From a virus, in the IMG/VR virus record IMGVR_UViG_3300035701_000016, positions 1-64,000 of that record: a DNA stretch of 64,000 nucleotides, one strand, 5' to 3'. A model generated the notes under the pieces. The model did no database searches, was not told the origin of the DNA, and saw only the letters and a program-made list of their open reading frames with translations. Positions 15,326-59,198 of the stretch are shown piece by piece (the first letter of the stretch is position 1; every line of letters begins with the position of its first letter). The position numbers and the translations under genes were made by a program.

Positions 15326-15355
15326 TTTAACTCCTTACTAACAGATTTGTTACAG

Positions 15356-15429
15356 TGTCCCCGGTGAGACTCGAACTCACAACCTACAGATTAGAAGTCT
15401 GTTGATCTATCCAGTTGATCTACAAGGAC
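15356..15429 (-). tRNA. tRNA-Arg (anticodon TCT)
   Basis: The 74-base cloverleaf is complete: acceptor GTCCTTG with CGGGGAC and discriminator A; D stem GATC/GATC; anticodon stem ACAGA/TCTGT with 7-base loop CTTCTAA (anticodon TCT); T stem GTGAG/CTCAC with loop TTCGAGT. CCA is not encoded. It reads AGA, an arginine codon used often in this window, so it probably helps translation where the host has few such tRNAs. Confidence 0.93.
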
Positions 15430-23471: not shown

Positions 23472-23969
23472 TCATTCCTTATCTACGAATCTGAAGTTTG
23501 AAATATGTCCAAGAGTTACGTTATCTCTTCTGCACGACATGGAGATGGCGGTACAACTTACTCCAGTAATAATTGAGGCTTCCTTTACAGATTCGAATAT
23601 AATTCCGGTATTCATGTCAAGAACTCTCTTTGCTCTGTTAGATTTCTTTCCAAGATGAGAAATACTCATTCTTTCTCTTGAGTCATCTGATATAATTTTT
23701 CCTACCAACTCATTTCTTGTTTTTAAGGAATGATTAAAAGATATGAATCCTCCACTCTGAAGATTGAATCCATTCGGATGGAGTGAATTGTATTTTAATA
23801 TGTAGAGTCTTTCCATCTCATCAAGATGATCATAAAATCTTACATCCTTAGCTATTAGTATATTTCTCGATAGAAGAGTATGAATTCTATTGCTCAATTT
23901 TGCTTGAGTTTGACCGATGTAAGACTTTCCTGTGCTAGTATTGTAGAATCTATATATTATTCTAGTCAT
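23472..23969 (-). CDS. GIY-YIG homing endonuclease with NUMOD1-like C-terminus
   Basis: 165 residues. The GIY-YIG core reads IIYRFYN then KSYIGQT, followed by an Arg (SNRIHTL) and a Glu (DEMERLYILKY). KRVLDMNTGIIFESVKEASI starts the NUMOD1-like DNA-binding module, related to those of the HNH proteins at 7995 and 14470. The gene is inserted between ThyX and a glycosyltransferase with 4-base spacing or overlap. Confidence 0.88.
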   Translation of the reverse strand: MTRIIYRFYNTSTGKSYIGQTQAKLSNRIHTLLSRNILIAKDVRFYDHLDEMERLYILKYNSLHPNGFNLQSGGFISFNHSLKTRNELVGKIISDDSRERMSISHLGKKSNRAKRVLDMNTGIIFESVKEASIITGVSCTAISMSCRRDNVTLGHISNFRFVDKE

Positions 23970-37666: not shown

Positions 37667-38607
37667 ATTCCTATGTATCTAACGTAGTATTCAAGAGTGA
37701 CGGTAGAAGTAATGGTTGTACCGGAACCCGATATGGTAAAATCGTTACGACCACCGGTAGAAGCTGGTAGTGGAGCCTCCGGATCCGGAGCTATGTGGAA
37801 AGTGGTTATACTACTTTCCTCAGTTATAGATCCCATAAGATTTATGCCGAGATCATTGACGACCGATTTGTTACCGTAGGGTAGATCAATATAAATAGTC
37901 TCTCCAGACATAATAGCATAATTCAACTCAATAAATTCACCTGTGGTAACGTTAGTGATCTTGAATCCAGTCATAGGTCCTGTGATTATTATCTTGGGAT
38001 AAGATAACCAGGATCCAGGATATATCACGTATTTTGAGTCAGAGTATGATTCTTCTGACAGAGTAAATGAGAAGGTGAAAGGAAGAATCCAGAATGATGA
38101 CAATGCCGGATCGTATAGTAATGACCATGACAGTCGGTCAATATCCGGATCAAAGAATACGGGATCATGAGCTACAAATCTTAGAGTCTCCGCATAACCG
38201 AACTCATCCCATCGATCAAGATTTCTTGCATTGAATATTGGACCCTGCTCTATGAAAACATAAATATCTCTCATGGAACCGTCAGGAAATTTCTTTCTGA
38301 GAACTCCTGTATTCATCTTATGGATAAGATTTCTGTTGGGTCTGATGGCGTTAAGTAGAGCAGTTCTATTGATCCAGAACTCATCTCGTGAACAACTATT
38401 CTGTCTTACCAGCATTTGTATTGTTCTCTTACCAAGTCTATAGTCTAGAACAGTTTCTCCATGCTGATATGGACCCTGTTGAGTAATATACTCAATAGGT
38501 GGCATTCCCAAACCCTCTTCGGTAAGAAGGAATCTGGTACTGGTATCGAAGTGGTACTCCTTGCCGTCAGGAGATATGTATGAGGTAAATTCTAATACAT
38601 CTGTCAT
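37663..38607 (-). CDS. distal tail protein (Dit-like)
   Basis: 314 residues. The N-terminal half (TSYISPDGKEYHFDT, YQHGETVLDYRLGKRTIQML, FWINRTALLNAIRPNRN) follows the pattern of phage Dit/tail components; the C-terminal half is a beta-sandwich-like part. Lies between tape measure and hub genes, the standard siphovirus position, with one-base overlap to the former. Confidence 0.7.
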   Translation of the reverse strand: MTDVLEFTSYISPDGKEYHFDTSTRFLLTEEGLGMPPIEYITQQGPYQHGETVLDYRLGKRTIQMLVRQNSCSRDEFWINRTALLNAIRPNRNLIHKMNTGVLRKKFPDGSMRDIYVFIEQGPIFNARNLDRWDEFGYAETLRFVAHDPVFFDPDIDRLSWSLLYDPALSSFWILPFTFSFTLSEESYSDSKYVIYPGSWLSYPKIIITGPMTGFKITNVTTGEFIELNYAIMSGETIYIDLPYGNKSVVNDLGINLMGSITEESSITTFHIAPDPEAPLPASTGGRNDFTISGSGTTITSTVTLEYYVRYIGI

Positions 38608-41600
38608 TAAGACCTCGCTAATGCCAAAGCCGCTCTAACGTCATAATATACAGATGATGGAGATTGCATATTTTCGTAGTTGGCATTCATGCTGACAAAT
38701 GTTCTATTGTCATTACTCACATTGGTGATCTGAGACATCACTCCACCTATGGCAGATATCGGAGAATAAGCATTGTCTCTAATTCCCTGATACATTCCTT
38801 CCATTATGTTAGCACCTATGTCGTAGAATACTCTAGATGGAGATCCCATGTCTAGGATCTTATTTACTTGAGCTATAATTCCATGCCAGAAATCTGAAAG
38901 ATTGGTAACAATCCAATCTTTAGCGGACAGTACTCCATCCCATAATCCATGAACCATATTCGCACCAGCATCAAAGAAACCTTTGATCCAGGTGGATATC
39001 GTACCTTTATCTCCGAATAGATAATTAACAAATCCATCTATTACTAAACGTAATCCACCTTTTTCACCAAATAGGAAATCCCAATTTTCCCTGAATGTTT
39101 TTACAAATTCCTCTACTTTCCACTTCAACTTATCAAACTCCATATACATAATTCCTCCCATATCCATTATGGTTCTCCACGCCTGAGGTCCTGCATTCTT
39201 AATGGTATATACTAGAAGAATTATAGCTCCAACTAATGCTAGAACCTCGAAGGCAGCTCCGGCAATGAGCAAAACCCAAGGATTCATAGACAGGATTAAT
39301 GCTGTGAAATCTATTCCAACGAATCCGCTCAAGAAATTCATGATGGATACAAATATGGTAGACTTTCCTATTATTTCAAATGCTTTCACAACGATCATAA
39401 TCAAACCTGCAGTCTTCAGCATATCTCCGAATAACTTTCCTGCAGCTCCGAACAATGACTGAAGACCTCCGATGGCAAGAATAACTCCTATTATGGTGGG
39501 AGCATTTTTTACGATATATCCTAGAAAATCCATGAGTGGAGGAATTGCTTTTATAACCAGATCCATGATGGCAGGAATCAACTTTTCAGTTACATTAGTT
39601 ATGACTCCTTTTATCATGGGAAAGAAATCCTCAGAGAAGAAATTTGTAATGGAATCAATAACAGAAACTATTCCATCCTTATTCTTACTCAGAGTTTCCC
39701 CGAAGGTTACGAATCCTTCAGCTAACAACTGAATCACACTTTTATCTCCCGGTTTAGTAAGAAACAAATTTTCAACTATAGTTCCTATTACTGCTCCAAC
39801 TGATTTAGCTATCCTACTTCCATCTTCCTCCCAGAATTTTCTGAGCTGAAGCATACCTTTTCCGATGGTATCTTTTAGAAGATCCCAGGAATACTGTAGT
39901 TTTGGAGTAAGATTTTTGAATGAATTTACGAGATTATCCCACAAACCTTTGAGAGGAGAAAATTTATCTCCTAACTGACCCCAGAATTCCTTAGCCTTAT
40001 CAAGAACGTTATCCCATAGATCCTGCATGGCTTTCTGAATCTCTCCGGTCTTGTCCTTGATACCTTGAGTTATTCCGGTAACAATACTTTTTCCAGCCTT
40101 AACACCATAGTCTTCAAATCCCAGAGCTGACGCAGTAAGATCCTCATTGGCTCCAGCAGCTTTCTTGGCTTCCTTCTCTGCATCAGCTTTGGCTTTGTCG
40201 GCCAGATCTTTCTGTCTCTTTAGTTCATTATTCATGTCAATTTGAGCCTGCAAAGTCTGCTTCAACGCTTCTGCCTGAGCTTTAGCAGCATCTGCATTAG
40301 CCTGAGCAATCTCTTTTATCTGTTGTTTCTCTAACTCAACTCTTTCCTTCAGAGCCTTTTGTTCCTCTTGATATCCTTCTATCTTAGCCTTTATCATATC
40401 CAAAGCAGCTTCTTTTTCTAATTCTTTATCCCTAATCTGCCTCTCAACCATGATTTGGGCTCTTTCATTTATTAATCTTTCCTTTTCCTTCTCTGTAAGA
40501 ATCTTAGTAGCCAAAGCATTATCTATATCCTGAACTCTAGTCATGTCAACTTGCTGATCTTTCAACTTTGTTAGTTGACCATTAAGTAGTCCAAGAATTG
40601 CATCATACATGCTCATAGTACGATTCAATTCTGCCTGAGCAGCAGCAAGTTTCTTGTCAACGGCAGCCAGACGAAGAGAATCAGAGGCATAATTGGATAT
40701 TAAATTGGATAGACCACCAAACATAGAAGCTATATTTTTGATATCTCCGAATGATGATATTCCTTTTCCAAATACATTCACAGATCCGGAACCTGAGAAT
40801 TTCAGCATGGAATTAACAGCCTCTAGGATATTGGCTGCTTTAGTGTACTGAACGGTAGCAAGTATGAAATTACTCATTTCCTGGGATGCGAATCCAGCGG
40901 CATTCATAATGCCATTTATTGCTTCTACCGTTATGTTTCCGAAATGAGAAAACTGATCAACAGCTTGAGCTATAAGTTTTTCAGTTTTTATAATTCTACC
41001 GGAAATTTCTACATCGGTAAGAATGCTTCCCCATGATTTTATAGCTTTAGACATCATGTCAGATATATCAGTAAATACAGAGAAGTCCTGAACTTTCCAT
41101 CCTTCCATGTAAGATGCCATAGCCTGCGTTCCCCATAAGGTAAGTTCAGGTAGAATCTTCGGAGGACTTCCTGCTTGAAGCCAATAAGTAATAGTATCAG
41201 CTACTGATGTAAGAGCATCAACTACGAATATTAACGCATTAGCCATTCCATCGGCAAAAGCTAGAATAATATTCTCTCCCCAGGTGAACATATTCGTCGT
41301 AAGATCAGTAAAGGAAGTTCCGAAGAATCCTAGGACATCTCCTATGAACTGGGTTACTCCGGACAATCCTGCGGATGCATTTTCTGCCAGAAGCTTTATG
41401 TTAGCCGCAAGAGTTAGAACAACCTTGGAGACATCATAGGTGGTAGGTCTACCTATACCTATCATAGCAAAAAATTCACCGAAGGCTGGAACTACTACGG
41501 ATTGAACGGTAGCAGCCAATTTGTCGAATCCGAATAGCAGAGTCTGCCCCAAATTTCCGGCTATTGCATAGTTTTCCGGAGTTAAGACAGATTGCAACAT

Positions 41601-42533
41601 ATCCTGCATTGTTCCAGCAATTCTATCCGCTATAGGACCTAGAACTTCGTATCCTAACAAGGACTGGATTAGATCTTTGATATTATTCTGAACTGCTAGA
41701 AATGTTCTTGACATTCTAGTCATAGCATTGGGAAAATCTTCGTCAACCATTTTCACGAATTCTGCCACGAATGCCTTCGCAGAAATCTTTCCGGTAGAGA
41801 ACATTTTGAGAATTTCTGCTCTTGCGACTCCCATTTGTTTTCCAAATCTGTCGGCAATAGTTCCTATTGGAACGAAACTGTTGGACAGGTCACGCAACTC
41901 ACGACCGGTTGGCTTTCCCTGAGCTACCATCTGACCCATATTATAGATAATTCTTCTAAGAACCTCATCTCCTAGACCCATAGCCGCAGTGAAGTTACCT
42001 ACAGATTCAGTAAGTTTCTTAGATTCAGGAACAGTAAATCCATATGCTTGTGCAAGAGCCAGAACATGACCTACATCCTCTACGGAGAAAGGAGTAGTGA
42101 CAGCTAATTGCCTGACCCAATACAGTAAGTCCTGAGCTTGACCTGCCGTTTCTCTTAGAGCAGTTGCGATGGGAACTCCGAATTGTCTGGCATAGTCTCT
42201 AGCTGCAAGAGTATCAAACTGAATTTTCATAGTTTGAAATACAGATACAGCAGCAACAGCCTCGTTCGCAACTCCTACTATAGCTTTCTCTATATCTCTA
42301 AAAGTATCAGCCACTAGAATACTGAAAGTTACGTCACGAATTCTCTTCAGAGCAGAATCGAGACCTCCCATACTAGCTCCGGCATTCGTCATGCCTTTAG
42401 ACACGGAGTCAGCAAAGGATTTGGTTACAGTGTACATTCCAGATAGTATAGAATTATAGTTCTTAGAATTTTGCTGGACATTAGTTATGTCCATCATAGC
42501 TTTAAGAACGGTTGCTACTTCCTCAATAGCCAT
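38607..42533 (-). CDS. tape measure protein
   Basis: 1,308 residues, the longest gene here. N-terminal part (residues about 90-330) holds the tape-measure core with RELRDLSNSFVPIGTIADRFG. A coiled coil covers roughly 640-800 (RQIRDKELEKEAALDMIKAK; EQKALKERVELEKQQIKEI). Two hydrophobic blocks lie near 1,090-1,150 (LIAGAAFEVLALVGAIILLV), as expected for a protein that enters the host membrane. Its length would set a tail of roughly 190-200 nm by the usual 1.5 A per residue rule. It follows the frameshift chaperone genes. Confidence 0.9.
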   Translation of the reverse strand: MAIEEVATVLKAMMDITNVQQNSKNYNSILSGMYTVTKSFADSVSKGMTNAGASMGGLDSALKRIRDVTFSILVADTFRDIEKAIVGVANEAVAAVSVFQTMKIQFDTLAARDYARQFGVPIATALRETAGQAQDLLYWVRQLAVTTPFSVEDVGHVLALAQAYGFTVPESKKLTESVGNFTAAMGLGDEVLRRIIYNMGQMVAQGKPTGRELRDLSNSFVPIGTIADRFGKQMGVARAEILKMFSTGKISAKAFVAEFVKMVDEDFPNAMTRMSRTFLAVQNNIKDLIQSLLGYEVLGPIADRIAGTMQDMLQSVLTPENYAIAGNLGQTLLFGFDKLAATVQSVVVPAFGEFFAMIGIGRPTTYDVSKVVLTLAANIKLLAENASAGLSGVTQFIGDVLGFFGTSFTDLTTNMFTWGENIILAFADGMANALIFVVDALTSVADTITYWLQAGSPPKILPELTLWGTQAMASYMEGWKVQDFSVFTDISDMMSKAIKSWGSILTDVEISGRIIKTEKLIAQAVDQFSHFGNITVEAINGIMNAAGFASQEMSNFILATVQYTKAANILEAVNSMLKFSGSGSVNVFGKGISSFGDIKNIASMFGGLSNLISNYASDSLRLAAVDKKLAAAQAELNRTMSMYDAILGLLNGQLTKLKDQQVDMTRVQDIDNALATKILTEKEKERLINERAQIMVERQIRDKELEKEAALDMIKAKIEGYQEEQKALKERVELEKQQIKEIAQANADAAKAQAEALKQTLQAQIDMNNELKRQKDLADKAKADAEKEAKKAAGANEDLTASALGFEDYGVKAGKSIVTGITQGIKDKTGEIQKAMQDLWDNVLDKAKEFWGQLGDKFSPLKGLWDNLVNSFKNLTPKLQYSWDLLKDTIGKGMLQLRKFWEEDGSRIAKSVGAVIGTIVENLFLTKPGDKSVIQLLAEGFVTFGETLSKNKDGIVSVIDSITNFFSEDFFPMIKGVITNVTEKLIPAIMDLVIKAIPPLMDFLGYIVKNAPTIIGVILAIGGLQSLFGAAGKLFGDMLKTAGLIMIVVKAFEIIGKSTIFVSIMNFLSGFVGIDFTALILSMNPWVLLIAGAAFEVLALVGAIILLVYTIKNAGPQAWRTIMDMGGIMYMEFDKLKWKVEEFVKTFRENWDFLFGEKGGLRLVIDGFVNYLFGDKGTISTWIKGFFDAGANMVHGLWDGVLSAKDWIVTNLSDFWHGIIAQVNKILDMGSPSRVFYDIGANIMEGMYQGIRDNAYSPISAIGGVMSQITNVSNDNRTFVSMNANYENMQSPSSVYYDVRAALALARS

Positions 42534-42539
42534 ATAATC

Positions 42540-42761
42540 CTACTTCTTTACTTCCATCTCAAAACCTTGCATCATTCCTGATGCTTCAGTCTCAGCTATA
42601 AGAAGTTCCCTGAAGAACTTCGGAAGATTCCAAAACATTCTCGGGTCATGTATTCCCCAAGATTTCATAACCTCGAGATCCCTGAATAGTTCAGAGTATT
42701 CCCAGGATCCATTCTTTATCTTCAAATTTTCTAACTTAGTTCCCTTACCAGCCTGATGCTC
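42540..42761 (-). CDS. tail chaperone frameshift extension (gpT-like)
   Basis: 73 residues read in the +1 frame after the stop of the gene at 42760. No ATG starts it; a TTG at 42725 is the only internal start. The frame is open without interruption from the upstream stop codon: GAG-CAT-CAG-GCT then on to WEYSELFRDLEVMKSWGIHD and MFWNLPKFFRELLIAE. Position just before the tape measure and the Trp/Phe-rich helices fit the T part of a G/GT chaperone pair. The fused product would have 259 residues. Confidence 0.65.
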   Translation of the reverse strand, partial: EHQAGKGTKLENLKIKNGSWEYSELFRDLEVMKSWGIHDPRMFWNLPKFFRELLIAETEASGMMQGFEMEVKK

Positions 42762-43320
42762 AGGATTCCATTCTATCCTGAAAGGAGTTCTTAATCTTGT
42801 TCAGATCCTCCCGATTAACTCCGGTAAGACCTAAAACCAACTCCATTATCTTTGCCATGTCATCAGGATTGCCCAGAAGTTCAGTTTTCTTATACATGAG
42901 AAGTCTATCCTCTGGATCCTCGGGAACGGTGATACCCATCAGGGACATCTTTTTGAGCCATCTATTCTCGTCAGGAATCTCAACATCAACTCCATCAATG
43001 AGAACGATGGTCATAAGTTGTTCCGATGCTTTTGAAGCGGCAGCGTTTACCTTCTCCGTATATTCAATCCACGTAGCCTGCTCCTCCGGAGAGGATTGAG
43101 CTATAGACGCTTCGTCATGCTTATGAACCTCTATGCCTCCACCCTCGGTTTGTACGGTATAGGTAGGAGGCTCGGGCATTTCAAATGACGATGATGTCAT
43201 CTGGATCAAATAGGGAGGAATTGGTCTTAACTTGATCTCAATTCCTCTTGATGTGATATAGGTACTGTTTGAACTTCCATCAATTCTTCGATGAAGTTCA
43301 TCGACATCTTTTCTAGACAT
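42760..43320 (-). CDS. tail assembly chaperone (gpG-like)
   Basis: 186 residues. Helical C-terminal half (RLLMYKKTELLGNPDDMAKI to GVNREDLNKIKNSFQDRMES) and a position between tail tube and tape measure identify it as the shorter chaperone. The gene ends GAA-TCC-TGA; UCC-UGA is the +1 shift site of eukaryotic antizyme messages, and the +1 frame is open here. Chaperones of this type coat the tape measure during assembly and are absent from the virion. Confidence 0.75.
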   Translation of the reverse strand: MSRKDVDELHRRIDGSSNSTYITSRGIEIKLRPIPPYLIQMTSSSFEMPEPPTYTVQTEGGGIEVHKHDEASIAQSSPEEQATWIEYTEKVNAAASKASEQLMTIVLIDGVDVEIPDENRWLKKMSLMGITVPEDPEDRLLMYKKTELLGNPDDMAKIMELVLGLTGVNREDLNKIKNSFQDRMES

Positions 43321-43415: not shown

Positions 43416-44879
43416 TTAGGATACTGGTTGGACTTTCCCAATGAAGCCAGTACCGCCAGAAATTTTTCCGACAACATAAGCCAGTTTGGATGAAACTACC
43501 TTGACGTCCAGAAATCCTGCATTAGTAATGGCAGGAAGAGCCATCCAGGAATATCCACCATCAATGGTCATCCAGATAGGAGCACTAGCTGCTGAACCAG
43601 CCGCAACTCCGAATAACTCTCCGTAGAAATCTATAGCAGCTACCACATTGGAGTTACGTTTTGTCCAGACGTCACCACCGTCCAGAGTGCAGAACATTCC
43701 ATCCGTACCCACCACGAAGGCATCCAACGAGGAGGTCATCTTGACATCCATAGCAACTGCGGAACCGGAAACAGCTCCGGCAGCTGACCAGGAAGTTCCA
43801 TCCGAGGTTACAGCAACCTGACCACCGGTATAGACAGCCATACCGTTGTATTCGTCATACATGCTGATGCCCTTGATAGCTGTCGCTGAGATAACTGCGG
43901 CTTCTTGCAAAGTCCAGGTTTCTCCAGCATCAGACGAGAAGTAAATCCTTCCCATATTGCTTCCGACCCAGATATGATAGCGATCAAGAGCAAACAAGGA
44001 ATGAGCTGACGAAACAAATTCCGTATTAACACTTCCAACAGCTACAAGACTCCAGGTTACTCCACCATTGTCTGAATAGGCAATATCCAGAGGACCAGCA
44101 TCGGTAGTACCACGAGCTACGATGATTCGGGTATCGTCTCTGCTCAACTTAAAGCAGACAACACCCTGAATATCCATGGCAGCAGCAAATGGATCAGCAG
44201 CAGCAGAAGCCCATGCACCTTCGTACAAGGAACGAAGAACATTGGCTTTGTTAGACGTGCTGCCTACCAGGAACTTGGATGAAGCCCACAAAGAATCTTC
44301 AGGACTCTGCTCTGCACCGCAGGAACCTTCGCAACGATCCTCTCCGCAGGTGGAGATACCCGTGATGTCTTCCGTATCCGAAATGGAGATTCTGGAGCAC
44401 TCCATGTTGAATACACGAAGAACTTCCTGGACAGATACTGCAAAGGACTGGGTTGATTCGCCCTCATCGGTAGGATTGCGGGATGCAAGTTTCGCAAGAG
44501 TGGCGGTAGTAATTTCAACACCGCCGAGCACGAAGGACCGATCAAAGTTGGTAAACACATCTCTACGACCGCAACTTACCTTGTGTACGAACAAGGTAAA
44601 CGGACACCCCTTGGCAGCAAGATCCTCGAGGTAGTCTGCGGTTGCACGAAGGTCGGTTTCAATGGTGGTTGTGATAGTTCCCGGAGCTCCCTTGAAGCTG
44701 TTCTTGACCTTGAACTTGCCTACCTGGGAAGGATCGGGACAATATAGGAGAGTTGAATCTCCCTTGGGTTCAGCAATATCGGCAACACTGTGACAGCCTA
44801 GATACCGAGTAATAGAGTTAGGACCGTTAGGCTGAACCCATAAAGACGCTTGACCTGCTAAGAAATTAACATCGGACAT
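43416..44879 (-). CDS. major tail (tube) protein fused to an Asp-box propeller
   Basis: 487 residues. Residues 1-165 read as a tail tube domain (SLWVQPNGPNSITRYLGCHS; APGTITTTIETDLRATADYL; FVLGGVEITTATLAKLASRN). Residues about 165-200 are Cys-rich (CGEDRCEGSCGAE). Residues about 210-480 carry five Asp boxes (SDNGGVTW, SSDAGETW, TSDGTSW, TLDGGDVW, TIDGGYSW) of a sialidase-like propeller. Gene order (before chaperones and tape measure) supports the tube call. GC-rich codons fit an abundant protein. If assembled, each tube subunit would show a propeller on the tail surface. Confidence 0.7.
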   Translation of the reverse strand: MSDVNFLAGQASLWVQPNGPNSITRYLGCHSVADIAEPKGDSTLLYCPDPSQVGKFKVKNSFKGAPGTITTTIETDLRATADYLEDLAAKGCPFTLFVHKVSCGRRDVFTNFDRSFVLGGVEITTATLAKLASRNPTDEGESTQSFAVSVQEVLRVFNMECSRISISDTEDITGISTCGEDRCEGSCGAEQSPEDSLWASSKFLVGSTSNKANVLRSLYEGAWASAAADPFAAAMDIQGVVCFKLSRDDTRIIVARGTTDAGPLDIAYSDNGGVTWSLVAVGSVNTEFVSSAHSLFALDRYHIWVGSNMGRIYFSSDAGETWTLQEAAVISATAIKGISMYDEYNGMAVYTGGQVAVTSDGTSWSAAGAVSGSAVAMDVKMTSSLDAFVVGTDGMFCTLDGGDVWTKRNSNVVAAIDFYGELFGVAAGSAASAPIWMTIDGGYSWMALPAITNAGFLDVKVVSSKLAYVVGKISGGTGFIGKVQPVS

Positions 44880-47221: not shown

Positions 47222-48523
47222 CTACTCTGTTAATGCCTTCTTTATATCCTCAATCTTGGACTCGGTCATGCCAGTAGTAACGGATAGAAATAAATTATCG
47301 GTTGACATGAATTTCTCCCAGGTATCAATTCCTGTAAATTTCAACTTATCAACTGATTTCTTTCCTACTCCTTCTACATCACCTGGATTAATCGGATGAG
47401 CCACAATATCTTCCACCGGTTTTTCTACAGGTTTCAGAGGAGTCTCCTTGACATTGGATTGAGCAGGAACAGGAACAGGAGCGGGACTCGACATATGTCT
47501 TTCCTGAATCTCAAATAAAGGTTTCTGATACTGCATAAGATCCATGATTCCTGTGTTCTTGTTTGTACTCAGATCCCTGTTGTCAATATTTCCTAGATTC
47601 TTGCTCTTACTGAATGTATAAGCAGCTCCGGTAACAGCACCGAAGAAAGTTTGCTTTCCGTCATTCTCTCCCATGTATCTTACAAGAGTCATTCCCTGAG
47701 ATCCGGCTAACCTCATAGGAGAATTCGCATCATACGATGACGGATTGCTACCGGAACTATTTCTGCTTCTTGCTCTACCACCACAGCAACTCATACTAAA
47801 CCTCCCCGAATAAAGATCAGGAAATTCCTCACGCATTAGAAGATGAAATCTTTCCTGCCATTCTGGCGATGTGTTCGTCAGAGTTCTATTCTGTTTCTCT
47901 CTACGGTAGAGATAACCCGCACCTTCTATGTGCAAACCACAGCAACCGACTGATCCTAGTGCTACATTGAATGACCAGTCATCTCTACCAATTCCAAACT
48001 TTTCTCGATAACCGCCACAAAGTTCCCATGCTTTTCTGGGAAACATTATTCCTGAATGTATTATATTTCTCTCCAAAAGCATGTAAAAGTCATAGTCATG
48101 AAATTTCCATTCCTTCTCTACTCTTGCTCCATCATGAAATACTCTCATGTTGTCATAGATTAGATTGGTAGGATTTTTTGACTGTTCCTCATACATCCTT
48201 TCAAGAGACCACCATTCTCTCATGTCATCTGCATCTATTCTGGCTATAAATTCACATTGTGTATTCTGTATCGCCAGATTGCAGGCGGCAGCAGATCCCG
48301 AGTTTACTGGAGTTCTCAGATATTTTACTGAAGAATATTTCTTGACTATTTCCTCAGTATTGTCAGTTGAACAGTCGTCAACAACTATGACTTCCGTGGG
48401 TAACAGATTTTGTACCGGAAGATCACCCAGGGAAGATACCCCACCAAACAATGATGCAAACAAATCTGGAAGATAGATTGCATGATTGTATGACGGAACT
48501 ATAACGGCTAGGGACACATCCAT
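47222..48523 (-). CDS. family 2 glycosyltransferase fused to a virion-like segment and a HhH domain
   Basis: 433 residues from the ATG at 48523 (AAGGTGG upstream); a GTG four codons earlier is less well placed. Residues 1-240 are a GT-A enzyme: VIVPSYNHAIY, VVDDCSTDN, ARIDADDMR (DxD) and GIGRDDWSF. Residues about 245-330 hold a Cys/Gly turn (SCCGGRA) and LVRYMGENDGKQTFFGAVTG with Y-x-F, a pattern I associate with small phage virion-module proteins. A Pro-rich linker and a helix-hairpin-helix (VEGVGKKSVDKLKFTGI) end it. It lies directly downstream of the capsid gene, so the capsid may be its substrate; inference. Confidence 0.7.
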   Translation of the reverse strand: MDVSLAVIVPSYNHAIYLPDLFASLFGGVSSLGDLPVQNLLPTEVIVVDDCSTDNTEEIVKKYSSVKYLRTPVNSGSAAACNLAIQNTQCEFIARIDADDMREWWSLERMYEEQSKNPTNLIYDNMRVFHDGARVEKEWKFHDYDFYMLLERNIIHSGIMFPRKAWELCGGYREKFGIGRDDWSFNVALGSVGCCGLHIEGAGYLYRREKQNRTLTNTSPEWQERFHLLMREEFPDLYSGRFSMSCCGGRARSRNSSGSNPSSYDANSPMRLAGSQGMTLVRYMGENDGKQTFFGAVTGAAYTFSKSKNLGNIDNRDLSTNKNTGIMDLMQYQKPLFEIQERHMSSPAPVPVPAQSNVKETPLKPVEKPVEDIVAHPINPGDVEGVGKKSVDKLKFTGIDTWEKFMSTDNLFLSVTTGMTESKIEDIKKALTE

Positions 48524-48538
48524 GAGAAATTCCACCTT

Positions 48539-51443: not shown

Positions 51444-53156
51444 TCAACTTTTTTCCTTTTTGTATTCGTCTATCATGATCTGAAGTTCCTCGACCCTTCT
51501 CTTGAAGGAATGATTATCATCCGTAAATCTTTTTCCTTGTCTTGCTATTATTTCTCGCTCTCTTTCTTTGGGAAGCCACTCTCTGATCTTTTCACCCAGA
51601 TCATCAAAATCTTCCCATACTACCAGATGAACTCCATCTTCAAAACCCATGAAATATTCCATTCCTTCTATCTTTTGTTGGAATACAAAAGCTCCTGCAT
51701 GAAGCATTTGGAATAATCTATTAGACACATAACCTATCGATTTTGGAAATAAATTGTCACCTATAGCAATCTTGGAAGAACGGTAGAGAACGTCTCCTGC
51801 AGAGAAGTCATATATGGTATTTCCGTCTGATCCTATATGAGAAGGCCACTGACCGAATAGACCTACCTTCAGATCCTTTTGTCTTCTCAACAATTCAGCC
51901 ATCTTCTGTCTTCTAGGGTCATAACAATTCCCTAAAAATACAATGTCATATCTGTTCTTATTTATTTCTGAATCGGGAACCCTATTGTAATCCTCATATC
52001 CTATCTGCCAGTATTTATAGTTGATGCCATAATCGACATAATCTTTGGCTATGTCGCCTATGGCAAATGATGCAAGATCGAACATTTTGCATATTTCTTT
52101 GTACTCTTTAGATCCATGAACATTCTCATGATAATCACCGCTCCATGACATGAATATTGTATTCTTATATTCATCTTTCATTCTCATCATGAAGTCATAA
52201 GTAAATATCTTGGGATGTTGGAATTGAACCAAGCAAATATCAGGATTGAAATTATCAATATCATATTCCAATAAATCCAAATGACCCTGATAATTTATTT
52301 CAGATACCAAATATTTCTCTGACAAAGCTTTTCTCAATCCAATCTTGGTTTTTAGCTGATGAGGAAATACTTTATCTTCGTACAGTGGAGCATAGGTAAT
52401 TCTTGGAATTCTTTTGCATGGATTGGTAACGGTAGGAGAAAACTTGATGACTGGACCCAGAACACCATTCCTTGTCCATTTATTTCTCCACTTAGCAGAA
52501 TCAGGATGACCTCCGGTAAGATGGTCAACAGGATTATTTAATTTTCTAAGGTCGTCATCTATCTGGAAATCATTAATACAAGCGCAAGGAATTCCTTCAA
52601 CCTTAAATCCCATCTCTAGAACCTGACAGCTTAAATCTGAATCTCCACCATAGGATACATAATCATTCCATCCGCCACATTTTGTGAGTAACCATCTTGG
52701 AATGATACATACTTGACCATATACTGTAGAAACCTTCTTACCGTTCCTAATAGCTGGCATACTGTCAAGGGTATATTCAGCAGAATGTCTATTTTGATAG
52801 AAACAACCAATTCCTACATCCAGATGATCGTCCATGTAGGCTATGGCAAGTCTTATCCCCTCAAATCTGAACTCAACATCGTCATTCGGCATAATGACAT
52901 ATTTGCCCCTTGACCTATTGAATCCAACATTATATGCCTGAATTAGTCCTAACAAAGCACCCTGCTCTATTAGAACTATGTCATCTTGTTCTCTCATCCA
53001 CTCCAAACTTCCGTCATTGCTTCCACCATCTACCATAACAATCTCGTACGGTATTCCTATACCGACGGATGATCTAACACTATAGATCATTCTCTTAAGA
53101 GATTCAAATCTGTTATATGTTCCTGATACTATTGACACGTATGGATTTTCAATCAT
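51444..53156 (-). CDS. two-domain glycosyltransferase (GT-A plus CgeB-like GT-B)
   Basis: 570 residues. N-terminal GT-A: VSIVSGTYNRFESL, VDGGSNDGS, MPNDDVEFR (DxD-like). C-terminal domain from about 290: YDIDNFNPDICLVQFQHPK, DIVFLGNCYDPRRQKM, and SNRLFQMLHAGAFVFQQ, the pattern of CgeB/glycosyl-transferase group 1_2 proteins. Two enzymes in one chain could add two sugars in sequence. The protease gene lies downstream; a GT2 gene overlaps upstream by ATGA. Confidence 0.8.
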   Translation of the reverse strand: MIENPYVSIVSGTYNRFESLKRMIYSVRSSVGIGIPYEIVMVDGGSNDGSLEWMREQDDIVLIEQGALLGLIQAYNVGFNRSRGKYVIMPNDDVEFRFEGIRLAIAYMDDHLDVGIGCFYQNRHSAEYTLDSMPAIRNGKKVSTVYGQVCIIPRWLLTKCGGWNDYVSYGGDSDLSCQVLEMGFKVEGIPCACINDFQIDDDLRKLNNPVDHLTGGHPDSAKWRNKWTRNGVLGPVIKFSPTVTNPCKRIPRITYAPLYEDKVFPHQLKTKIGLRKALSEKYLVSEINYQGHLDLLEYDIDNFNPDICLVQFQHPKIFTYDFMMRMKDEYKNTIFMSWSGDYHENVHGSKEYKEICKMFDLASFAIGDIAKDYVDYGINYKYWQIGYEDYNRVPDSEINKNRYDIVFLGNCYDPRRQKMAELLRRQKDLKVGLFGQWPSHIGSDGNTIYDFSAGDVLYRSSKIAIGDNLFPKSIGYVSNRLFQMLHAGAFVFQQKIEGMEYFMGFEDGVHLVVWEDFDDLGEKIREWLPKEREREIIARQGKRFTDDNHSFKRRVEELQIMIDEYKKEKS

Positions 53157-53926
53157 GGAAGCTCCCTCTCTTCATCATGCTTAGGTCCGGTAAGAAAATC
53201 ACGATATCTTGTAGTAAGAATTGGAATATTTTTGACCCAACTTTCCTGTGCTATATTCCCACTATTGGTTCTGTGAGAAGTACCCCACTCCCATCTTGAG
53301 AAATTTGGAAGACAATACAAACCTGACAACCAACCATGATTAATATATCCCTTTATGCACAAATCAACTTCCTCAGTATTTAGTGGAGCATATATCTCGT
53401 CAAAATAACCCAAAGTTTCCACCATGCTATGTCTCCACATCAAAGGTCCACGATTTACTGCATCTTTTATGTAGAATATATTTCTCTCGGCATCTTGTCT
53501 TTCAATCAATGATTTTCTCCATCCTATCATACCGTTATCTTCCAAATAGAAATTGAAACATGCCTGAGCAGATACGGCAAGAACTTCACTCCATCTAATG
53601 AATGGTTTAAGTAATCTTTCATCAAAATTTTCCTCCACAGCAATCATATCATCTTGCATGTTGAGTATGAACGGTTCTCTGCATACCCTGTATCCAAGAT
53701 TGCACGCTTTATTCTCGAAAACTCCGTTGGATACTAAGATATTGTAATTGAATTTCTTTTCCGTAGATTCTATGAATTCCCCGGTAATTTCCTGAGATCT
53801 ATCCGTACATCCGTCAAATACTATAACTAATTCTTTAACCAATGGAGAACAGTTATAGTATATTCCATTAAGAACATTTAAAATAATGTCCTCATGATTG
53901 AAAACTGTTAGAACAATGCTAATCAT
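53153..53926 (-). CDS. family 2 glycosyltransferase
   Basis: 257 residues from the ATG at 53926, which overlaps the upstream stop. ISIVLTVFNHEDIILNVLNG, ELVIVFDGCTDRS and NMQDDMIAV give nucleotide-sugar and DxD sites; LNTEEVDLCIKGY is the acidic base region. No membrane helix, so cytoplasmic. It is coupled to the methyltransferase upstream and the two-domain enzyme downstream. Confidence 0.82.
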   Translation of the reverse strand: MISIVLTVFNHEDIILNVLNGIYYNCSPLVKELVIVFDGCTDRSQEITGEFIESTEKKFNYNILVSNGVFENKACNLGYRVCREPFILNMQDDMIAVEENFDERLLKPFIRWSEVLAVSAQACFNFYLEDNGMIGWRKSLIERQDAERNIFYIKDAVNRGPLMWRHSMVETLGYFDEIYAPLNTEEVDLCIKGYINHGWLSGLYCLPNFSRWEWGTSHRTNSGNIAQESWVKNIPILTTRYRDFLTGPKHDEERELP

Positions 53927-54554
53927 AGATAGTGTTTGCCAAGAGAGCATCTCCGCAGACGCCCCCAGGATAGTCCTCTACCACTCTAAATGACGGTAGT
54001 AGCTCAAGAATTCTAGGGAGGGTACAGAATCCTTTGTATAGCTCAACATTCTCATATTCCGTGAAGAAACCCTTTACCTTGGTTCTGAATATCTCGAGAC
54101 CTCCCATAATCATACGTTCTTCAGCCCCTTGTATGTCAGACCATACAAAGTCTATCACGTCAATTCTATGCAAAGCACAAAATGTGTCCAATCGTATAGT
54201 TGGAACTACATATTCTTCAACAAATGGAATCTGATCGAATACAGTTTTATGCAGCATGGGAACTTGAATAGATCCGGAAGCATCTCCATATCTATTAGGA
54301 TTGGAAGATAATCCACCTGCAACATAAAAAGTAGCTTCACCATCCTCATCAGATATTGCTCCCTCGAATAGTGTAGCTTTAAGATTTAGAGCTCTAATCT
54401 TTTTTATGTTCTCTCTATCAGGCTCGAATAGATACAAATGAACATTAGGCCACATAAGGGAGAAATGTTGTGAATCCTCACCATAATGAGAACCAGCTTC
54501 TACTATGGTAGGATCTGATCTCTTTACAAATTGACGAATCAAATCTTTGTTCAT
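53919..54554 (-). CDS. FkbM-type methyltransferase
   Basis: 211 residues. SAM-binding motif I VEAGSHYGEDSQ, then YLFEPDRENIKK, and FVWSDIQGAEERMIMGG, the D-x-Q/E-G-x-E signature of the FkbM family. Such enzymes O-methylate sugars. Tandem with a second FkbM-like gene upstream, so capping of a phage-made glycan is likely; the acceptor is unknown. Confidence 0.82.
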   Translation of the reverse strand: MNKDLIRQFVKRSDPTIVEAGSHYGEDSQHFSLMWPNVHLYLFEPDRENIKKIRALNLKATLFEGAISDEDGEATFYVAGGLSSNPNRYGDASGSIQVPMLHKTVFDQIPFVEEYVVPTIRLDTFCALHRIDVIDFVWSDIQGAEERMIMGGLEIFRTKVKGFFTEYENVELYKGFCTLPRILELLPSFRVVEDYPGGVCGDALLANTIYD

Positions 54555-56231: not shown

Positions 56232-59198
56232 CTACTCCCATAAATTTGCCGAGATTAGTAATACTTCTTCATCATCATTTCTTCTCTTCTTCTTCTCCCA
56301 CCAGAATGGTTCCGCATGTCCAGGAGTTACTGCTACGATAGGAGCAGAAGGTGAAGGAGATGCGCTCATGGAAGAAGATATGGACGGTGATGCACTGACA
56401 CTAGCAGAGATGGATGAACTTATCGATGGAGATGCACTTACCGAAGCACTCTTAGAAGAAGATATGGATGGAGAGGCAGAAATTGAAGCACTAATGGAAG
56501 CACTAACAGAAGCACTCTTAGAGGCACTAATTGATACACTTACAGAAGCACTAATAGAAGCACTCAGAGAAGCACTGACAGAAGCACTTATGCTAGGTGA
56601 GGCAGATATTGAGGCAGACATGCTAGCTGATTTGGAAGCACTTATCGATGCACTTACAGAAACAGAAATGCTAGCAGAAATACTAGAAGAAATACTTTCA
56701 GAAATACTAGGTGAAGCACTAACAGATGCAGAAATAGAAGGACTAGCTGAAATTGAAGAAGATAAACTAGCTGAAACAGAGGCTGAAATAGATGGACTAG
56801 CAGATATACTCGCAGATATACTTGCACTTATTGATACTGAAACTGAAGCTGACTCTGATGCTGATACACTAGCACTAATAGATGCACTTTCACTGGTGGA
56901 TACAGAAGCAGAAACCGATGCGGAAATAGAAGCACTAATTGAGGGTGATGCAGAAATTGAAGCCGATTCACTAGACGATACACTGGCTGAGACACTAGCA
57001 CCAATACTAGGTGAAGAACTAACACTAGAAGAAATACTAGGAGAAGCAGATACACTAGCAGAAATAGAGGCACTTATACTCGCAGATACCGAAGCACTAA
57101 TACTTGGTGAAGCCGAGATAGATGCTGAAACAGAAGCACTTACAGAAGCTGAAATACTAAGACTCGCACTAACTGATGAAGATACACTGGCACTAACACT
57201 AGCAGACTTAGATGATGATACAGAAGAGGATATTGAGGGAGAAGCACTAAGTGAAGCACTTAGTGATGCTGATACGGAAGCTGATATACTAAGACTAGCT
57301 GAAACAGAAGAAGAAATAGAAGCGCTTACTGAAGCACTTATACTCAGACTTGCAGAGATAGATGTACTGACCGAAGCGGATATACTAGCACTTATACTGG
57401 GAGAAGCGGATATACTAGCACTAAGAGAAGCACTAACAGAAGAGGATATAGAAGGAGATGATGATACTGATGAACTAACAGAGGAACTCACACTAGCAGA
57501 AATAGAGGGTGAGGCTGATACGGAAGCACTAACACTAGCACTTGTGGAAGCACTTATTGATGGAGAAGCTGAAACTGATCCAGAAACAGACGATGAAATA
57601 CTAGCTGATAAAGATGCAGATACAGATGCACTGATTGAAGGAGATGCAGATACTGATGCACTAATTGATGGACTTGCACTGATACTTGCACTGATGCTAG
57701 GACTAGCTGAAATACTTGCACTCTCAGAAGCACTTTCGGAAGCTGAGATAGAAGGAGATGCACTGATACTAGCAGAGACGGATGCAGATATGGAAGCAGA
57801 TATACTAGCACTTTTCGAAGCTGATATAGAAGCCGAAATTGAAGCACTTTCTGATGCACTGATTGATGGGGAAGCCGAAATAGATGCGCTCTCACTTGCT
57901 GATACTGAAGCGGATATACTGGGACTAGCACTTATTGATGCGCTTTCACTTGCAGATATAGAAGAACTTATACTAGGACTTGCTGACACTGAAGCTGAGA
58001 TGGAAGCACTTACTGAGGCGCTTATACTTGGAGATGCTGAGATACTGGCGCTTTCAGAAGCAGAAATAGAAGCACTAATTGAAAGTGAAGCAGAAATACT
58101 GGCCGAGACTGATGCACTTACGCTGGACGAGATACTTGGGCTGGCACTGATACTTGCAGAAATAGATGCACTAATACTTGCACTTATAGATAGACTAGCA
58201 CTAACACTAGCAGATACTGACGCTGATATTGAAGCACTTATACTAGCCGAAATACTCGGACTTGCCGATACACTAGCACTCACTGAAGCACTAACTGACG
58301 CCGAGATGGAAGGACTTGCACTTACTGACGCCGATTTCGAAGAAGAAACTGAGGAAGATATACTAGGAGAAGCAGAAATTGAAGAGGATACCGAAGAACT
58401 TATTGAAGGTGATGAAGATACAGATGATGAAACTGAAGCACTAATACTAGGAGATGCACTTACGGATTTACTTTCACTTGCTGATACTGAAGATGATGCA
58501 CTTCCCACCACTCCCTTGAATGACTTCTTCATCATGTGGGGGAAGAATATCCTAGGATGGCTGGCAATCGGAACAGTCCCCTGCTCAACCATCTTAGCCC
58601 CGTTCATCAGATCGGGTTCATCCCCACTACTATCCCCACGAATTAGGGGATAGTAGGCGACCAGACTTTCGGGTTTGACAAATAGCGGAGAGTAACCTAC
58701 TGCTAGTTGCTTAATATCCGCCAAGGTTAAAGCCACATTCCAGAAACCGACTTCGGCCAAAATCGCTTCTGCCGCCACTTTCCAATGAGAAGAGGTCGAA
58801 TACAACATAGTACCAAGTGTAGTTCTGCTTACAGTTGTGGCCGGAACTCGACTGGTAGTTTCATCCCCACCGCCTACTCCATTTGTATAACCAGTTCGTA
58901 AAGTAGCAGAGCTAAATACTGCGGCTGCATGATTCCACGCATTAACATTTGTAGCAGGCCCATAAGACGAACTGCTCGCACCTGCCGCCCAAGTTGTCGC
59001 TCCTACTGTTCCCGTTGTTGTTATAAGTCTAAGGCCAAACCCATCAGGGGCAGCATTTGTCGAAGTCAGATATACCAAGGACTGTTCTTGTGTGAATCCT
59101 GATGGATATACCCAACACGCCATAGTCAGCGGCGTGGCTGTAATTAAGCCAGTCGCATTAAGAAAATAATTCGAGGTACTATGAACACCTCGTGCCAT
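56232..59198 (-). CDS. LamG-like domain protein with very long Ser-rich repeat
   Basis: 988 residues. Residues 1-190 form a concanavalin/LamG-like domain ([46 protein letters not shown]). Residues about 235-955 are an alternating-serine repeat ([15 protein letters not shown] and relatives) in which nearly every second residue is Ser. The last 30 residues are Pro/Trp then basic ([14 protein letters not shown]) and acidic. Probably an extended, flexible virion spike with a sugar-binding head; Ser side chains may carry glycans. A long opposite-strand frame here is a by-product of the repeat. Confidence 0.75.

Follow-up and report, generated by a model that had tools for sequence, protein, structure and literature searches.

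The window, by which we mean the whole 64,000-nt stretch of DNA that was analysed, comes from a virus record of 75,103 bases and carries two overlapping open reading frames, G and T, between the genes for a probable major tail protein and a tape-measure protein, an arrangement that is also found in 27 homologues. The order on the minus strand is probable major tail protein, G, tape-measure protein, then Dit and other tail genes, and the features concerned are as follows.

43416..44879, minus strand: probable major tail protein, 487 aa, from its position upstream of G, which it also holds in relatives
42760..43320, minus strand: gene G, tail assembly chaperone, 186 aa, from the open reading frame, its position and the predicted fold
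42780..42786, minus strand: proposed +1 shift site UCC_UUU_C (UCC 42786-42784, UUU 42783-42781, C 42780)
42760..42765, minus strand: UCC-UGA, the end of unshifted G and not the shift site
42540..42800, minus strand: +1-frame open stretch with the T part, from its translation and the conserved T alignment of 28 sequences
42540..43320, minus strand: predicted GT fusion, 259 aa, with TTTC read as one Phe step
38607..42533, minus strand: tape-measure protein, 1308 aa

The tape-measure gene matches PHROG tape-measure families with E-values down to 1.7e-16 and Pfam TMP_3 with an E-value of 7.9e-22, and the probable major tail protein has a C-terminal BNR/YCF48-like domain (Pfam PSII_BNR, E 4.8e-07). 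This domain is large, probably a beta-propeller, and is kept in three close relatives (L002, L003, and L004). The 3' end of G reads ...AAC TCC TTT CAG GAT AGA ATG GAA TCC TGA, and so G does end GAA-TCC-TGA, as stated in the original prediction, which had been made from the letters of the window alone. The +1 frame is open already from 42800, a point overlooked in that prediction, and any shift between 42800 and 42760 would reach the T extension, the stop codon of which (TAG 42542-42540) lies 6 nt before the ATG of the tape-measure gene (42533). Skipping one base at the stop of G gives 73 sense codons (GAG CAT CAG GCT...) up to this TAG, and the first ATG, GTG, or TTG in the extension frame is the TTG at 42725, both just as had been described.

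Neither G nor T gave a significant match to a PHROGs or Pfam family, and the weak family match of G is to PHROG 17338, a tail assembly chaperone family (E 0.046). The AlphaFold2 model of G, built from 26 homologues, has a mean pLDDT of 87.7, and its best matches in the PDB, YqbN (3klu) and the HK97 tail assembly chaperone (2ob9), score Z 6.4 and Z 6.2, respectively, followed by a next row at 3.8, where a Z near 6 is to be read as a modest fold match. Since the expected family is among the top two PDB fold matches and the gene is in the corresponding position, the identification of G as a tail assembly chaperone (TAC), which depends on gene position and predicted fold together, is secure, and the chaperone assignment in the original prediction is upheld, as is its view of the extension as a gpT-like part. 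A Foldseek search with the model of T gave no significant viral match. A canonical -1 heptamer is usual in chaperone G/GT pairs but is not universal, with Mu and the haloviruses differing. Here the usual -1 heptamer is absent at the end of G. The lambda gpG/gpGT pair and other TACs that use a -1 shift have the same gene position and two overlapping frames (PMC5009743), and the HK97/YqbN-type fold of the -1 TACs reviewed there is predicted here too, whereas those of the lambda type shift by -1 on X_XXY_YYZ heptamers and the shift proposed here is +1.

Because G and T alone match nothing, with single-sequence searches finding no counterpart in isolate phages or viral contigs, the relatives were reached by way of the tape-measure and major tail proteins, and the homologous loci were picked by a match to either of these and not by the shift site. 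The resulting set of 28 genes is that of the window and 27 divergent homologues (L043, an unclear case, was left out), which fall into a close clade (L002, L003, L004, L007, L011, and L015; G 29-41% identical to that of the window), clade 2 (L016, L018, L021, L032, and L057) and clade 3 (16 contigs). No prophage copy turned up in two scans of the genomes of bacteria and archaea. The T proteins are about 10-50% identical across the 28 contigs, and in 28/28 a T frame lies at the same place in the +1 frame of G. That this is the case in 27/27 divergent homologues means that the open +1 frame is not a product of chance, and the predicted shift into the +1 frame is supported.

The frame relation, the invariant UUU-Y and the point at which the frames switch can be read directly from the aligned sequences. 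The last codon common to both frames is UUU in all 28 distinct TAC genes and the base that follows it is always a pyrimidine (C in 24/28, T in 4/28), even though UUU makes up only 19-77% of the codons used for Phe in the contigs concerned. Given each contig's own codon usage, 28 UUU codons would occur with a chance of about 10^-10.5, with the contigs taken as independent though they are related. Where the codon preceding UUU specifies Ser (14 genes), it is UCC in 13 (that of the window and 12 homologues), with a chance of about 10^-10.7 when kinship is ignored, and since related contigs were treated as independent both of these figures serve as ranks rather than probabilities. The Phe itself, F180, is among the six invariant columns of a 26-sequence alignment of G. 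Codon periodicity changes phase at the same place, TTT C, which is 18 nt upstream of the UCC of UCC-UGA: in the close clade conservation is lowest at the 0-frame third position upstream of UUU (permutation P 0.004) and at the +1-frame third position downstream of it (permutation P 0.0016). Clade 3 agrees (P 0.002 upstream, 0.043 downstream), and the five sequences of clade 2 gave no significant downstream periodicity (P 0.35). In-frame UCC_UUU_C occurs once among the 19,858 codons of the long ORFs of the window; as plain DNA TCCTTTC is not enriched (16 found versus 13.9 expected), and it is unique in the window only as an in-frame use. In clade 3 (for example L055:2742-2768 and L048) conservation extends past the slip codon itself, in that the stretch GCC GAG NNN TTT CCT GGG AG[TC] is nearly invariant as DNA and encodes F-P-G-S in one frame and F-L-G-V in the other. 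Dual coding may explain this near invariance, but its GCC codon, too, hardly varies.

Based on these sequence comparisons we put forward, with considerable confidence, a stop-codon-independent +1 frameshift at UCC_UUU_C as the probable means by which the G/GT chaperone pair is made. The original prediction had placed the shift at the end of G instead, at an antizyme-like UCC-UGA site. In such a shift termination at UGA would be slow and the P-site tRNA-Ser would move from UCC to CCU. It is the case that UCC directly precedes the stop of G in the window and that antizyme mRNAs shift on the tetramer UCC_U. However, a stop after UCC is found only in the window and is missing in 6/6 close relatives, where the triplet following UCC or CCC is GAC, GAG, CAG, GAG, GAG, and GAC and where G continues for 2 to 26 codons more, so that on comparison with relatives it is the open +1 frame that proves to be conserved and not the TCC-TGA site. 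Moreover, protein constraint acts on the +1 frame already upstream of this UCC, where each of the seven members (the window and six close relatives) reads F-[RQL]-[IV]-x-W-[NT]-P, and the P of this block varies silently while the same base changes the residue in the 0 frame. The UCC is a by-product because the +1 codons TGG-AAY-CCN force it. A move from UCC to CCU would also cost the first base pair, and a fold test from the UUU site onward found no downstream structure in the window. We regard a shift at UCC-UGA as very improbable; what had been observed and its reading as a +1 shift are right, and the site that was chosen is wrong.

There is likewise only a slender chance that T is a separate small protein with its own start, either the TTG at 42725 or a rare start coupled to termination of G. 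Such a start would be afforded by this TTG, which in the window lies 19 codons inside T, or by a GTG near the slip in a few homologues, but TTG 42725 comes only after the conserved F-x-[IV]-x-W-N-P block, no ATG, GTG, or TTG is present in T for 70, 58, and 35 codons after the slip in L018, L002, and L003, respectively, and both the invariant UUU-Y and the fixed +1 frame in 28/28 would be left unexplained. A -2 slip and a +1 slip end in one and the same frame, and -2 is documented for the gpGT of phage Mu (cited in PMC3498833), but a tRNA-Phe set back from UUU by two bases would face CCU (a codon of the AGU/AAU type in clade 3), with which it cannot pair, and only +1 fits the invariant UUU-Y, making a -2 event very improbable. 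As to the idea that T and G are really one frame, broken by gene decay or by an error in sequencing or assembly, single-base indels are common errors in contigs, but no tool result obtained here favours such an origin, and 28 independent contigs share the break, as do the haloarchaeal virus HF2 and the Methanobacterium virus Drs3. An error is already excluded by the conservation of the break, and the probability that we leave to it is negligible.

The mechanism that we propose is thus a slip at the UUU of UCC_UUU_C. The majority of ribosomes would read through UUU CAG ... UCC UGA and yield G (186 aa), while a minority would lose the frame with UUU in the P site. There tRNA-Phe (anticodon GAA) would release UUU and re-pair with the overlapping UUC (UUU in the UUU_U members), its pairing with UUC being expected to be at least as good as with UUU. 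It is this re-pairing that would require the strict pyrimidine at the fourth position. The next codon after the slip would be AGG, and 79 more residues (42779-42543) would be added to give GT (259 aa), with a predicted junction of ...IKNSF/RIEWNPEHQAGK... in an alignment of five fused proteins. The predicted junction peptide is ...NSFRIEWNPEHQAGK for a slip at UUU_C and ...MES-EHQAGK for a shift at UCC-UGA. We infer both the slippage event and the ratio of its products, and the same applies to the roles in tail assembly. With lambda as the model, these would be the coating of the tape-measure protein by G and the recruitment of the major tail protein by the T part of GT, the rarer product.

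No stimulator was identified for the proposed shift. Slowing in the A site by a rare codon is not supported, as CAG, at 18.6 per 1000, is one of the common codons of the window, and no Shine-Dalgarno-like sequence was seen at the RF2 spacing by the slip site. In a fold test of pseudoknot-free structures, no RNA structure was found in the 90 nt downstream of the UUU site of the window, where the positive z-scores (+1.2 for 60 nt and +2.2 for 90 nt) mean less structure than in shuffled sequences; for the homologue set the mean z was -0.5 (60 nt) and -1.1 (90 nt).

The closest known parallel to the slip codon itself is PA-X of influenza A virus, in which +1 slippage on UUU_C has been established by measurement (PMC3498833). 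The UCC_UUU_C heptamer is identical, the P-site tRNA-Phe likewise slips from UUU to UUC, and no 3' structure is known there; PA-X differs in that it is made by eukaryotic ribosomes from a different gene without homology. As at PA-X-type sites, UUU_C lies in the 5' part of the overlap with the downstream ORF in the +1 frame (42783-42780 in the window), and the E-site codon is UCC. The preference of PA-X-like sites for CGN in the A site is not seen, the A-site codon being CAG in the window and mostly CAG, CCN, CAA, or TCT among the 28. The same 2012 paper predicted UUU_C as a class of +1 sites but described it only in viruses of eukaryotes (PMC3498833). Among viruses of prokaryotes, a +1 shift at TTT-CGC has been proposed for the tail assembly chaperones of the HF1-group haloviruses (PMC7230728). 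In these viruses (HF2, HSTV-2 type), too, the TAC precedes the tape-measure gene, T is in the +1 frame and UUU_C is the proposed slip codon, and in HF2, which we checked, the sequence is ...GAG AAG TTT CGC AGA TAG with T in the +1 frame, in agreement with that proposal. They are, however, a narrow group of archaeal myoviruses, with six genomes and an argument from alignment only, in contrast to the 28 divergent contigs considered here, and they have AAG in the E site and CGC in the A site, whereas here UCC_UUU_C is found in 13 and an A-site CGC in 2/28. The tsh genes of Listeria phages PSA, A118, and A500 and 17.1* of SPP1 are likewise phage tail genes with a +1 slip in the P site, at CCC_UGA or CCC_UAA (PMC5009743, PMC6316719), but in these a Pro codon is followed by a stop and the product is an extension of the major tail protein rather than a chaperone. 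The chaperone of SPP1 itself is a putative -1 case.

Methanobacterium virus Drs3 (MH674343) was found as the rank 4 structure match of G, and although it was not used in building the UUU-C rule, it obeys it. Its chaperone, Drs3_00030, ends GAG AAA TTT CCT GAA GAC GGA TGA, and a T frame of about 50 aa lies unannotated in the +1 frame at 23635-23790 (L068) with an overlap of about 23 nt. This T is shorter than that of the window, and its site is a prediction from sequence.

Among the phage chaperone shifts known so far -1 predominates, and according to a 2024 predictor paper forward shifts lack an identified general motif (PMC10885494). Forward-shift TACs have been annotated in actinophages (PMC10274946, PMC10885494). 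No report of UUU-Y as a bacteriophage chaperone shift site was found in a literature search that had most subscription journals outside its reach. A slip site of the PA-X kind appears to be kept across a wide uncultivated group, and the single motif UUU-Y accounts for every +1 chaperone found in this search, often as the exact PA-X heptamer. It can serve as a simple annotation rule by which overlooked T parts such as that of Drs3 are found, and the 28 natural variants together with HF2 and Drs3 offer material for testing, with a bacterial reporter, what the E-site UCC, the codon in the A site, and the base at the fourth position each contribute. More broadly, UUU-pyrimidine could be a general +1 slip codon of prokaryotic viruses that needs neither a stop codon nor a dedicated stimulator, is conserved in a wide range of TACs from tailed viruses of bacteria and archaea, and was independently reached in eukaryotic RNA viruses, a generalization for and against which we hold the balance to be about even. 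If true, the slip of P-site tRNA-Phe would be a universal weakness of ribosomes.

The direction of the shift has changed within the related set. In two more distant tape-measure relatives from the same search, L020 (2312-2952) and L022 (2194-2993), T is in the -1 frame and the textbook -1 heptamers C_CCC_CCG and A_AAA_AAA are present. The annotated joins of isolate Arthrobacter and Microbacterium phages, which are distant tape-measure matches, are of 599, 602, and 962 nt and fit a -1 shift, and Bacillus phage Staley, the best viral structure match of G, has T in the -1 frame as well.

The best matches of the DNA polymerase and helicase of the virus of the window are from phages of bacteria. 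Elsewhere in the window, glycosyltransferase-like genes with GtrB-like PHROG matches, together with a methyltransferase, adjoin the structural genes (47222-48535 and 51444-54554), and one tRNA-Arg gene with the anticodon TCT is present at 15355-15429. A protein of 988 aa (56232-59198) has an N-terminal Laminin_G_3/ConA-like domain (E 7.7e-11) and is possibly a receptor-binding or fibre protein.
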